In this document: positions 56,040 to 61,117 of the stretch, one piece after another
How positions within the stretch are numbered: the first letter of the stretch is position 1
Layout: each line of letters starts with the position of its first letter
Assembly (NCBI GenBank): GCA_024508855.1
Contig: JANINJ010000107.1
Location: 124,001-188,000, forward strand
Source: Xanthobacteraceae bacterium
Lineage (GTDB): Bacteria; Pseudomonadota; Alphaproteobacteria; Rhizobiales; Xanthobacteraceae
Direction of reading: 5' to 3'
DNA length: 64,000 nt
Notes under the pieces: generated by a model
Told to the model about the DNA's origin: nothing
Seen by the model: only the letters and a program-made list of their open reading frames with translations
Database searches by the model: none
Translations under genes and position numbers: made by a program

Positions 56040-59000
56040 TCACGCCTGACTGGCGATTTCCTTGCCGAGCGCGGCCTGCGCCGCGGCGAGCCGTGCAATA
56101 GGCACGCGATAGGGCGAGCACGACACGTAGTTCAGCCCGACGGCATGACAGAACGCGACCGAAGCCGGATCGCCACCGTGTTCGCCGCAGATGCCCATCT
56201 TGAGATCGGGCCGCGTCTTGCGGCCACGCTCGACACCGATCTTCACCAGTTCGCCGACGCCTTCACGATCCACCGAGATGAACGGATCGATCTCGAGGAT
56301 ACCGCGCGCGACGTAGGTGCCGAGGAAGCTTGCAGCATCGTCGCGGCTGATGCCGTAGGTCGTCTGCGTCAGATCGTTGGTGCCGAACGAGAAGAACTCG
56401 GCCGTTTCCGCGATCTCGTCGGCCTTGAGGCAGGCGCGCGGCAATTCGATCATGGTGCCGACCTGATACTTCAGCTTGGCGCCGGTCTCGCGCGCCACCG
56501 CCTGTGCGGTAGCGTCGATGCGCGCCTTCACCAGATCGAATTCCGCCTTGGTGGCGATCAACGGCACCATCACTTCCAGGCCGACGACCTTGCCGGTGCG
56601 CTTGCCGGCCTCGACCGCGGCTTCGAAGATGGCGCGAGCCTGCATCTCGGCGATCTCCGGATAGGCGATGGCGAGACGGCAGCCACGGAAGCCGAGCATC
56701 GGATTGAACTCGGCAAGCTCGCGGGCACGATCGGCCAGCACGCGCGGATCGGTATTCATCGCGCGCGCGACTTCCTCGATCTCGGCTTGCGTGTGCGGCA
56801 GGAATTCGTGCAGCGGCGGATCGAGCAACCGGATCGTGACCGGCAAATCCTGCATGATCTCGAACAGTTCGACGAAGTCGGCGCGCTGCATCGGCAGCAG
56901 TTTCGACAATGCAGACCGGCGCGACTGTTCGTCGCCGGCGAGGATCATCTCGCGCACCGTGCGGATGCGGGTTTCCTCGAAGAACATATGCTCGGTGCGG
57001 CACAGGCCGATACCTTCGGCGCCGAACTTGATCGCGGTGTGAGCATCGGCCGGCGTGTCGGCGTTGACGCGCACGCCGAGCTTGCGCACCTGATCGGCCC
57101 AGCCCATCAGCGTACCGAACTCGCCGGACAATTCCGGCTCGATCATCGGCATCCGTCCCGCCAATACCTGGCCGAGCGAACCGTCGATGGTGATGACATC
57201 GCCGGCGTTGAACACGCGATCTCCGATCGACATGGTGCCGCGGCCGTAGTCGACGCGAATGGTGCCGCAACCGGAGACGCAAGGCTTGCCCATGCCGCGC
57301 GCGACCACCGCCGCGTGGGAGGTCATGCCGCCGCGCGTGGTGAGGATGCCCTCGGCGGCGTGCATGCCGTGGATGTCTTCGGGGCTGGTTTCGACGCGGA
57401 CCAGGATGACCTTGCGGCCATCGGCCTGCAGCTTGGTCGCTTCATCGGACGAGAACACGATTTCGCCCGACGCCGCGCCGGGCGATGCCGGCAGGCCGAC
57501 CGCGACCACATCGCGCTTGGCGGATGGATCGATGGTCGGATGCAGCAACTGATCGAGCGAAGCGGGATCGATGCGCGACACCGCGTCCTGCTTCGAGATC
57601 AAGCCTTCGTTGGCGAGCTCAACCGCGATACGCAGCGCGGCCTTGGCGGTGCGCTTGCCGTTACGGGTCTGCAGCATCCACAGCTTGCCGTCCTCGACGG
57701 TGAACTCGAGATCCTGCATGTCGCGATAGTGCTTTTCGAGCAGCGTGTAGATACGCGTCAATTCCTTGAACGCCGCCGGCATCGCGTTTTCCATCGACGG
57801 CTTGTCGGAACCAGATTCCTTGCGCGCATCCTCGGTGATGTCCTGCGGCGTGCGGATGCCCGCCACCACGTCCTCGCCCTGCGCGTTGATGAGGAATTCG
57901 CCGTAGAGCTTGCCTTCGCCGGTCGACGGGTTGCGCGTGAATGCAACGCCGGTAGCGGAAGTTTCGCCCATGTTGCCGAACACCATGGCCTGCACGTTGA
58001 CCGCGGTGCCCCACGACTCGGGGATATCGTGCAGCCGGCGGTAGGTGACGGCGCGCGCATTCATCCACGAGGAGAACACCGCACCGATGGCGCCCCACAG
58101 CTGCGCGTGCGGATCCTGCGGGAAATCACTGCCGGTTTCCTGCGCGACGGCTTCCTTGTAGCGGCCGACCAGTTCGACCCATTCGTCGCCGGTGACGTCG
58201 GTGTCGAGCGTATAGCCCTTGCTGTCCTTGAAGGTGTCGAGGATTTCCTCGAAGTGATGATGCTCGAGACCCAGCACCACGTCCGAATACATGGTGATGA
58301 AACGGCGATAGCTGTCATAGGCAAAACGGCGGTCGCCGGACAGCGCTGCAAGCCCTTCGACCGTCTCGTCGTTGAGGCCGAGGTTGAGCACGGTGTCCAT
58401 CATGCCCGGCATCGAGGCGCGGGCACCGGAACGCACCGATACCAGCAGCGGGTTCTTCGAATCGCCAAAGCCCTTGCCGGTGATCTTGCCGACATAGGCC
58501 AGCGCCTGCTCGACCTGCGTCTTCAATTCCTTCGGATAGGATTTGTCGTGGGCGTAGAAGTAGGTGCAGACCGAGGTCGGAATGGTGAAGCCCGGGGGCA
58601 CCGGCAGGCCCAGATTGGCCATTTCCGCGAGGTTGGCGCCCTTGCCGCCGAGCAGATCGCGCAGGCTGGACTGTCCCTCAGCCTTGCCATCGCCGAAGGT
58701 GTAAACCCACTTGCCGGCCTTGGGCACCACCGCTTTGGGAGCCGCCGACTTGGCCGCAATTGGCTTTTTGGCCACCGGCTTCGCGACCGGCCGGGAAACC
58801 TTTGCTGCAGACTTCACCGCGCCCTTTTTTGCCGCTTTGCCGCCGCCCGCGCTGGCGGTTTTAGCCCGCTTGGGCGCCGGCGCCTTGGCTTTCGCCTTGG
58901 ACTTGGCCGCCGATGTCTTCTTCGTGGAAGACTTCTTGGCAGCAGAGGATTTAGGGGATTTCGCAGACGATTTCTTGGACTTCGATGCAGTTTTGGCCAT
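56040..59000 (-). CDS. ppdK: Pyruvate, phosphate dikinase with Lys/Ala-rich N-terminal extension
   Basis: A 986-residue enzyme that interconverts pyruvate, ATP and phosphate with phosphoenolpyruvate, AMP and pyrophosphate. Normal PPDKs are about 880-900 residues. Residues ~97-430 form the ATP-grasp domain (SLRDLLGGKGANLAEMANLG), residues ~500-620 the swivelling domain with phosphorylated histidine in GGMTSHAAVVARGMGKPCVS, and the C-terminal TIM barrel ends with the catalytic cysteine in MGICGEHGGDP. Residues 1-96 are an unusual basic stretch (KSSAKSPKSSAAKKSSTKK and so on) like histone H1 or AlgP tails. ATG 59000 (MAKTASKSKK) is the family-like start with this tail. Confidence 0.95.
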   Translation of the reverse strand: MAKTASKSKKSSAKSPKSSAAKKSSTKKTSAAKSKAKAKAPAPKRAKTASAGGGKAAKKGAVKSAAKVSRPVAKPVAKKPIAAKSAAPKAVVPKAGKWVYTFGDGKAEGQSSLRDLLGGKGANLAEMANLGLPVPPGFTIPTSVCTYFYAHDKSYPKELKTQVEQALAYVGKITGKGFGDSKNPLLVSVRSGARASMPGMMDTVLNLGLNDETVEGLAALSGDRRFAYDSYRRFITMYSDVVLGLEHHHFEEILDTFKDSKGYTLDTDVTGDEWVELVGRYKEAVAQETGSDFPQDPHAQLWGAIGAVFSSWMNARAVTYRRLHDIPESWGTAVNVQAMVFGNMGETSATGVAFTRNPSTGEGKLYGEFLINAQGEDVVAGIRTPQDITEDARKESGSDKPSMENAMPAAFKELTRIYTLLEKHYRDMQDLEFTVEDGKLWMLQTRNGKRTAKAALRIAVELANEGLISKQDAVSRIDPASLDQLLHPTIDPSAKRDVVAVGLPASPGAASGEIVFSSDEATKLQADGRKVILVRVETSPEDIHGMHAAEGILTTRGGMTSHAAVVARGMGKPCVSGCGTIRVDYGRGTMSIGDRVFNAGDVITIDGSLGQVLAGRMPMIEPELSGEFGTLMGWADQVRKLGVRVNADTPADAHTAIKFGAEGIGLCRTEHMFFEETRIRTVREMILAGDEQSRRSALSKLLPMQRADFVELFEIMQDLPVTIRLLDPPLHEFLPHTQAEIEEVARAMNTDPRVLADRARELAEFNPMLGFRGCRLAIAYPEIAEMQARAIFEAAVEAGKRTGKVVGLEVMVPLIATKAEFDLVKARIDATAQAVARETGAKLKYQVGTMIELPRACLKADEIAETAEFFSFGTNDLTQTTYGISRDDAASFLGTYVARGILEIDPFISVDREGVGELVKIGVERGRKTRPDLKMGICGEHGGDPASVAFCHAVGLNYVSCSPYRVPIARLAAAQAALGKEIASQA

Positions 59001-59093
59001 GGCTTCCAGACGGTCGGCATGAGGGGAAAACGCTGCCGCCTTACACCACGTTTTGGCGGCCTCGCGCAAGACGCGAAGCCGCCAATTCTCGCC

Positions 59094-59249
59094 TTATAGG
59101 TGTAGCGCCTTCAGCACGCCGAGGCCCGCAAGACCGATGAAAATCAGGTAGATGGCGACGACGAGATTGAGGAATCGCGGCATCAGCAAGATCAGGATGC
59201 CCGCGACCAGGGCAACGATTGGCTGAATGTGGGCGCTGGTGATGACCAT
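59094..59249 (-). CDS. DUF3096 small membrane protein
   Basis: A 51-residue protein with two hydrophobic helices (IQPIVALVAGILILLMPRFL; LVVAIYLIFIGLAGLGVLKA). It matches the DUF3096 pattern seen in many alphaproteobacteria (TSAHIQP at the N-terminus). AGAGGA precedes the ATG at 9 bases. The longer frame to 59744 is antisense to the next gene. Function unknown. Confidence 0.85.
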   Translation of the reverse strand: MVITSAHIQPIVALVAGILILLMPRFLNLVVAIYLIFIGLAGLGVLKALHL

Positions 59250-59880: not shown

Positions 59881-60984
59881 CTATGCTCCGCGGAGCATCG
59901 ACAGCAACGTGCTTGTCGTCTTGTAGCTCTGCGCGGCGGTATCGCGGAACGCCGGCGTCCAGTTGGTTGCCTGACGTTCCTCGTCGCTCATGCTTGAATA
60001 GGTATTGAGGATGCCGAGACTCACTTGGCTCGGGTCACCGCTTTTCTGGCCCTGCTGAAGTGCGTTGAGGATGCTCATCCGCGTCCGCGTGTTCAGCTCG
60101 GTCTTCGCGGCGTAGATTTCCTGATTGGAAAACATCTCGCCTTGGTTCAGCACGATCGCCGAGAGCGAGCGATTGTCGAACGAGGACAGGTCCGCAAGCT
60201 GGCCGGTCTTGCGGCCGGGATCGAACACCAATTCCTTGCCGGCGCGTGTCGCCGCATCCTGCTGCGCGTCAAGCGCGGCGCGGACCCCCTTCGCGATGTC
60301 GCCGAATGTCACCGGCGCAGTGGTGTCGCCGGCCGCCGGTTGCGTCAGATAAGCCGCGACCGGATCGCCTGCGATGCCCGAAGGGATTTTGCCCGGAGAC
60401 TGCTCGGTCGCCTGATAGCCCTTTTGCACGGCGGCGCGTTGCGCGGCCCATGTGGTCGTTGCCTTCTCTTCGGGGCTCGCGCCGTCGAGATAATCCAGCG
60501 CGGCCTTGTAGGCGACGGCATAATTCCCGATCAGCTTGGAGGTCGAAGCGGCGGGCGCGAGCGCAGCATTGAAGCGGTTATTCAGTTCGCCGCTGGCGAC
60601 AGCCTGCTCGTCCGGCGTGAACTTGCCGCCGTTGTTGGTGGCGATCGCGAACAGCGAGCGCCGATCCATCGACGACAGATCGATCGTCGCGTTGCCGTCG
60701 GCATCCAGTGGCGAGGTGACATTGGCCGTGGCGTACATTCCGTCGAGCGCAGCACGCGCATCCGCCGTGACGGTAGTGAAATCCTTGGTCGTCGCAGAGT
60801 TCGCAAGCTGCGCACGCGCCGCATCCGACAATGTCAGGTTGGTCGCGGCATTGGGATCGAACGGATTGGTGGAATCAGCAGCATCGAGCGTGCTCGCGAG
60901 CGACGGCTGCGTCGCCGCTGCACGAGCGTAAACCGACCCCATTTGCGCATAGGGATTGGGCAGGCCGGACGTAATAGAGGTCAT
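59881..60984 (-). CDS. Unknown protein with an internal duplication
   Basis: A 367-residue protein without signal peptide or membrane helix. Two similar units occupy about residues 70-193 and 227-357. Anchor pairs are ARAALDG/VRAALDA, DLSSMDRRSLFAIATNNGG versus DLSSFDNRSLSAIVLNQGE, SGELNNRFNAAL versus KTELNTRTRMSIL, and SPEEKATTTWAAQRAAVQKG versus SDEERQATNWTPAFRDTAA. The first unit has an EF-hand/dockerin-like loop DADGNATIDLSS (D94, D96, N98, T100, D102); the second does not. The N-terminus has NLTLSDAARAQLANS. Start ATG 60984; an inverted repeat lies upstream at 61040-61067. Function unknown; calcium binding is a guess. Confidence 0.7.
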   Translation of the reverse strand: MTSITSGLPNPYAQMGSVYARAAATQPSLASTLDAADSTNPFDPNAATNLTLSDAARAQLANSATTKDFTTVTADARAALDGMYATANVTSPLDADGNATIDLSSMDRRSLFAIATNNGGKFTPDEQAVASGELNNRFNAALAPAASTSKLIGNYAVAYKAALDYLDGASPEEKATTTWAAQRAAVQKGYQATEQSPGKIPSGIAGDPVAAYLTQPAAGDTTAPVTFGDIAKGVRAALDAQQDAATRAGKELVFDPGRKTGQLADLSSFDNRSLSAIVLNQGEMFSNQEIYAAKTELNTRTRMSILNALQQGQKSGDPSQVSLGILNTYSSMSDEERQATNWTPAFRDTAAQSYKTTSTLLSMLRGA

Positions 60985-61117
60985 CGGCGGGTCTCGCGTG
61001 TGGCCCGACGGCAAATGTTAAGAAGCCGTTACCGCAGCAACCTCGCAAAACATGGTTAACGCGAGGTAAATACGGTGACGGGCGCGCCAAACGGCCGCAT
61101 CCGAGGCGACTACCGGG

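Follow-up and report, generated by a model that had tools for sequence, protein, structure and literature searches.

The pyruvate, phosphate dikinase of a Xanthobacteraceae bacterium bears a conserved lysine-rich N-terminal tail, a possible electrostatic anchor

The gene for pyruvate, phosphate dikinase (PPDK) on contig JANINJ010000107.1 of a Xanthobacteraceae bacterium (GenBank assembly GCA_024508855.1) raises the question of what a metabolic enzyme might do with a long polycationic tail. The gene lies in a stretch of 64,000 nucleotides (positions 124,001 to 188,000 of the contig), here termed the window, whose numbering is used throughout. The ppdK reading frame runs on the minus strand from an ATG at 59000 to 56040; its first 96 codons (58713..59000) encode the tail, and the catalytic core with its stop codon occupies 56040..58712. 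The tail opens with MAKTASKSKKSSAKSPKSS, closes with KAVVPKAG and is followed from residue 97 by the core sequence KWVYTFGDG. It is composed of K 28%, A 28%, S 16%, P 8%, V 6%, G 5%, T 4% and R 2%, with 27 lysines among its 96 residues, neither acidic (Asp+Glu 0%) nor aromatic residues, 2% Leu+Ile+Met and a net charge of +29. A preliminary description of this DNA had reported a histone-like tail of about 96 residues, rich in lysine and alanine and almost devoid of bulky residues, and its coordinates, composition and junction with the core were all reproduced here. Known PPDKs are homodimers; if the window PPDK is one as well, the charge per enzyme would be +58.

Judged by its domains and motifs, the protein is a complete pyruvate, phosphate dikinase. 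The curated NCBIfam model for the family, TIGR01828, matched residues 97-978 with 1407.4 bits against a cut-off of 843.45, and the core holds three Pfam domains (nucleotide-binding, mobile and phosphoenolpyruvate (PEP)-binding). The motif GGMTSHAAVVARG, which we take to be the phosphohistidine site of PPDK, is present, with T560, S561 and H562 invariant in an alignment of 27 rows. An alignment to a solved PPDK scored 1135 bits and opens at window residue 96, while the solved PPDKs listed, such as 1KBL and 1DIK, align from window residue 95-97, corresponding to chain residue 2-4. The earlier claim that standard bacterial PPDK lacks the tail therefore holds for these structures and for the span of the NCBIfam model. 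No PPDK other than the window gene was found in the genome; the next match is a short stretch with 36% identity in a different frame.

The distribution of the tail was determined from named genomes and from samples of the family and order of the window. Among named genomes, the N-termini of the best 80 of at least 593 PPDK loci were read. Seven were tailed, originating from Bradyrhizobium (four), Rhodopseudomonas, Afipia and one metagenome-assembled genome. The remaining 73, one of which (L009) carries the name Bradyrhizobiaceae, were untailed, with an ATG no more than 12 codons from the core and in 52 cases exactly two codons upstream. Within the GTDB family, the PPDK start was readable in 58 of 61 sampled genomes, yielding 31 tailed and 27 untailed enzymes; in G039, G047 and G048 the matches to a close PPDK all fell short of its N-terminus, and these three genomes were left out. 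All eight genomes of the window genus possess PPDK and all six with a readable start, the window included, are tailed; the other two loci (L148 and L149) are cut by a contig edge within the core and were counted neither way. At the level of the order, strong PPDK matches were obtained in 55 of 61 sampled genomes, among them the own genome and one family member. The tail was absent from all ten rows from outside the family that were read, each having an alignment start before query residue 80; the other order-level rows start at residue 84 or later and include the partial matches G068 and G092, which stop short of the N-terminus.

A tree of the core was built from 84 rows, 40 of them tailed, using 25 of the 80 named-genome loci and omitting the partial rows L141-L143, the edge rows L148 and L149, and L112. 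The clade comprising the window, Bradyrhizobium, Rhodopseudomonas and Afipia was recovered with a Shimodaira-Hasegawa-like approximate likelihood ratio test (SH-aLRT) value of 100. The preliminary description had proposed comparing the N-termini of relatives, and the tail proved common to all 26 rows of this inner clade. At least five changes between the tailed and untailed states are needed on what is a quick tree with a midpoint root and an unsure position for the long row L070; two are forced by strongly supported branches, and none of 500 shuffles gave a number as low. A single early gain followed by several losses fits this pattern, and several independent gains are possible.

An automatic rule recognised tails in 44 of 145 rows, of which 42 were kept after dropping L050, an arginine-rich overlapping frame that ends in MT before the core, and L112, a duplicate of the window. 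These tails range in length from 28 to 216 residues with a median of 75.5, the rule taking the most upstream fitting ATG so that a few lengths are perhaps too long. L122, for instance, measures 152 residues by the rule, its likelier start, MAKSSK, lying 115 from the core, and a second ATG also occurs in L098, L100 and L142. The longest PPDK tail by this rule, with 216 residues and a net charge of +46, belongs to L118:180-3497 (G009).

H1-like tails as such are already known. Among the matches listed in a search of the open-access literature, no paper describing such a tail on PPDK was found. Neither 'dikinase' nor 'ppdK' is mentioned in the body of PMC4842269, PMC6515984 or PMC4287336, as far as these were accessible, and the accessible part of PMC9369019, on lysine tails, offers nothing further for the PPDK tail.

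The evidence that the tail is made as protein begins at its start codon. In all 26 inner-clade rows the ATG (58998..59000, minus strand) and the GC and AAA that follow it are invariant, and the commonest letters at positions -8 to -1 read TGGAAGCC. A possible ribosome-binding site, GGAAG (59003..59007, minus strand), precedes the ATG at the short spacing of 2 bases and is replaced by GCAAG or GAAAG in some relatives. An in-frame TTG at 59069 would extend the open reading frame (ORF) to 1009 amino acids; the ATG at 59000 was taken as the start because it is the codon marked by conservation. On the opposite strand an open frame of 984 amino acids (56145-59099, plus strand) spans nearly the whole of ppdK including the tail, and is probably a shadow of codon bias rather than a gene.

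Fifteen pairs of tails, overlapping in their members, were aligned as proteins, a procedure that favours lysine-lysine pairing and frame 0. The ratio of nonsynonymous to synonymous rates (dN/dS) in the tail lay between 0.06 and 0.42 in 14 of these pairs and was undefined in the 15th, where dS was saturated; the core gave 0.010-0.119 in the same pairs. Tail dS exceeded core dS in most pairs, a sign of some misalignment. In seven pooled pairs the corresponding ratio of proportions (pN/pS) in the tail was 0.35 in frame and rose to 1.45 and 1.36 when the frame was shifted; differences numbered 186, 85 and 78 at the third, first and second codon positions, respectively. The pair L006/L084, the cleanest, aligns without gaps, and here the tail had a dS of 0.26, a dN of 0.07 and a ratio of 0.25 (core: dS 0.28, ratio 0.059), with 17 differences at third, six at second and five at first positions. 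On this comparative evidence the tail is translated and under purifying selection at the protein level.

The preliminary description had named a start near residue 97, or a frameshift in the assembly, as findings that would dispose of the tail. Such an artefact, with the true start near residue 92-97, could draw on two GTG codons that lie in frame as residues 91 and 92, five to six codons ahead of the core. It is contradicted by the conserved context of the ATG, by the in-frame selection and by the absence of any ATG, GTG or TTG after the first codon in 12 of the 42 tails (including four of the five genus mates with a readable tail), where a late start of these kinds is therefore impossible. 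A frameshift is contradicted by the same in-frame purifying selection together with the occurrence of 42 such tails, and an artefact of either sort is accordingly given almost no weight.

Such tails can be hidden by gene-start calling and by trypsin proteomics. In a mock full tryptic digest the window protein yielded two tail peptides of at least seven residues and three relatives yielded four to seven, so that routine proteomics would largely overlook the tail, as would the mass spectrometry suggested in the preliminary description if trypsin were used. A 2012 study of PPDK phosphorylation in R. palustris (Hu et al.) reportedly gave the regulatory threonine the number 487. In the window PPDK the TSHAAV threonine falls at position 464 of the core, and 464 + 23 = 487 is the numbering obtained from the last GTG in the tail of L088, which groups with Rhodopseudomonas. 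If the reported numbering is right, the public R. palustris gene model hides most of the tail.

Selection appears to act on the charge of the tail, that is its lysines, rather than on its exact sequence. Across seven close pairs, 93% of aligned lysines were kept, compared with 79% of Ala, 76% of Pro, 75% of Ser, 73% of Arg, 46% of Val and 22% of Thr; the gap-free pair L006/L084 kept 100% of Lys, 93% of Ala, 89% of Pro, 83% of Ser and 50% of Val. Single-base differences in lysine codons numbered 28, of which 23 were silent, two led to Arg and one each to Thr, Gln and Asn. None led to Glu, though one transition suffices. Twenty of the 127 amino-acid differences in the seven pairs involve lysine, none of them setting Lys against Asp or Glu, and there is one Ala/Glu difference. 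Over all 42 tails only 24 of 3319 residues are acidic and 29 tails are acid-free; the net charge ranges from +8 to +46, or 0.21-0.38 per residue, and rises with length (r = 0.94). The best conserved stretch is formed by the first residues, M1, A2 and K3 being invariant in the 26 inner-clade rows. Most untailed PPDKs begin with M(A/T) directly ahead of KWVY, and the tail therefore seems to have grown by expansion of the interval from MAK to KWVY.

The tail is predicted to be intrinsically disordered. An AlphaFold2 model based on 27 aligned rows gave a predicted local distance difference test score (pLDDT) below 50 and neither helix nor strand for residues 1-95, and the first element of secondary structure at residue 100. 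This is compatible with disorder and falls short of proof, as the alignment was shallow and the model overall only moderately good (mean pLDDT 66.8, predicted template modelling score 0.58).

In the 26 inner-clade rows Asp+Glu make up 13.4% of the core, versus five acidic residues among 2197 in the tails. The rarity of such stretches was assessed in ORFs of at least 60 amino acids, chosen greedily without overlap, from the window and 19 further stretches of its contig. A 50-residue Lys/Ala stretch was found in one of 447 ORFs in 441,733 bases, and that one was PPDK. A looser 40-residue filter passed one of 379 ORFs when applied to the contig without the window, and three of 422 when applied to 400 kb sampled from G024, a related genome that is complete. 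These censuses extend to some 8.6% of the own genome and to 5% of that of G024, miss genes cut at stretch ends and leave out the contig of topoisomerase I. In G024 a 499-amino-acid ORF (L187:7097-8596) has a Lys/Pro/Ala-rich C-terminal tail.

Searches with the tail alone, which are insensitive to low-complexity sequence, returned no Pfam or NCBIfam family at E≤0.001 and no PDB chain at E≤1. A single-sequence search of the own genome for other copies found the tail itself and three weak places (E 0.04-0.33), all taken as noise: the best is antisense to a frame that by eye resembles DNA polymerase I, the second contains four stops, and at the third lies a short frame of no relation. A profile of the 26 tails, searched against seven genomes, missed both the window tail and topoisomerase I, and its negatives carry no weight and were not used. 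Three of its six matches were PPDK itself; of the others, L172 overlaps no convincing tailed gene, L174 holds four stops, and L171:1480-2289 (G043, a related genome) is a 269-amino-acid ORF with a Lys/Pro-rich C-terminal tail. The last resembles an SRAP/YedK-type protein.

We propose, with a probability of roughly 45%, that PPDK is held on a polyanion, in the first place nucleic acid, by its tail acting as a disordered electrostatic anchor; we infer the binding, the partner and the benefit. The single PPDK of the genome would thus be made with a translated, disordered, acid-free polycationic N-terminal tail that arose when the Bradyrhizobium/Rhodopseudomonas/Afipia lineage originated or close to that point, was retained for its lysines and holds the enzyme on a cellular polyanion independently of sequence. 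The likeliest polyanion would be nucleoid DNA, or RNA and ribosomes, as for the H1-like tails of AlgP and the lysine-repeat topoisomerase I. The topoisomerase I of the same genome (L195:430-3363, G000:C92, identified by its Pfam domains) has a C-terminal tail of about 80 residues with 31% K, 30% A and a net charge of +25, a resemblance to the PPDK tail in make-up rather than demonstrated homology; it offers an analogue within the genome for a polyanion tether, which is our best guess. Several considerations weigh against the proposal. To our knowledge PPDK has no role at nucleic acid, and the literature searched yielded no binding data for such a tail on any PPDK. Polyphosphate or acidic membranes should bind the same composition equally well. 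Several outer relatives, such as L103, L107, L109, L110 and L121, are entirely without the tail, which is therefore dispensable for the enzyme. Finally, the tail evolves with a dN/dS several-fold above that of the core and carries indels in 14 of the 15 pairs, as would fit weak constraint too.

This last point leads to the view, which we hold to be unlikely, that slippage expanded the codons between MAK and KWVY into a weakly constrained low-complexity accretion with no specific partner, acidic and bulky residues being purged solely for harm to folding or solubility. The wide range of lengths, the indels, the high dN/dS and the loss or absence of the tail in several lineages are as such an accretion would have them, whereas the 93% conservation of lysine against the greater drift of the other residues of the tail, the charge density maintained throughout the 42 tails, the retention of the tail in every inner-clade row and the rarity of such stretches in the genome sample are not. 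Attachment of PPDK to polyphosphate granules, placing an enzyme that makes or uses pyrophosphate beside a phosphate store, is rather improbable. AlgP, with its Lys/Ala/Pro tail, associates with such granules and needs its C-terminus for their spacing, according to the accessible part of PMC9239181, and phosphate and pyrophosphate are named among PPDK substrates and products in that of PMC8100219. Against this, the sequence holds no signal by which polyphosphate could be told from nucleic acid, KPAA units like those of AlgP are absent from the window tail, and a scan of five neighbouring proteins of the window gave no pointer to polyphosphate. Nucleic-acid tethering, polyphosphate tethering and phase separation, all raised in the preliminary description, are indeed indistinguishable at the level of sequence. 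Condensation could also form part of a regulatory role, in which acyl groups are added to and removed from the lysines, or the tail folds onto the acidic core, so that activity, solubility or assembly follows the metabolic state. The number of lysines would suit this, and lysine repeats of the Streptomyces topoisomerase are suggested as acetylation targets from the authors' unpublished data in the accessible part of PMC7398561. The literature search, however, found no acylation data for PPDK tails, and 20-30 lysines at constant density are not needed for regulation; we regard such a role as improbable.

If the anchor reading is taken further, PPDK might be tethered lineage-wide to the nucleoid (or to RNA and ribosomes), carrying out pyruvate/PEP interconversion and the turnover of AMP and pyrophosphate on nucleic acid, a more doubtful step. 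Transcription, replication or the removal of pyrophosphate could then respond on the spot to the metabolic state, or lysine acylation could release the enzyme. More generally, a selected, clade-wide tail on a soluble enzyme would mean either an overlooked cellular location of PPDK or a general use of polycationic tails away from DNA.

Upstream of ppdK and adjoining it on the same strand is a gene for a DUF3096 protein of 51 amino acids (59097..59249, minus strand; PF11295, 59.3 bits). The untailed L103, inspected by eye, may likewise encode a small protein of this sort upstream of PPDK, in a different frame. Between glyS and ppdK, an ORF of 377 amino acids (59881-61014, minus strand) has no Pfam match and holds two similar internal segments, RRSLFAIATNNGGKFTPDE and NRSLSAIVLNQGEMFSNQE.

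Among known systems, the solved PPDKs share the complete catalytic core and differ by lacking the 96-residue tail. N-terminal extensions of plant and protist PPDKs are transit peptides that direct the enzyme to organelles and are cleaved. They are likewise N-terminal, basic and on the same enzyme, and disordered as the tail is predicted to be, whereas the bacterium has no such organelle and its tail is far more lysine-rich. By composition (K28 A28 S16 P8, no Asp or Glu) the tail is of the H1-like, AlgP or Hc1 type, although the family-model searches, insensitive as they are to low complexity, gave no sign of homology. In print, H1-like tails were found on proteins working at DNA or at storage granules. 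Those of AlgP and the polyhydroxyalkanoate-granule protein PhaF of Pseudomonas are Lys/Ala/Pro-rich disordered polycations, as the PPDK tail is predicted to be, and DNA binding is reported for KPAA peptides from the tail of AlgP in the accessible part of PMC9239181; they are, however, C-terminal and built of tandem KPAA units, whereas the PPDK tail is N-terminal, on a metabolic enzyme and in the window free of KPAA. In the two relatives counted, KPAA occurs once (L006) and three times (L091). Closest in composition are the lysine-repeat C-terminal tails of topoisomerase I in Actinobacteria, Caulobacter and the own genome, which are also carried by an enzyme. In Streptomyces these repeats stabilise topoisomerase on DNA, and they were noted in Caulobacter as well (PMC7398561, in part). 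Topoisomerase I, however, works on DNA, and PPDK does not.

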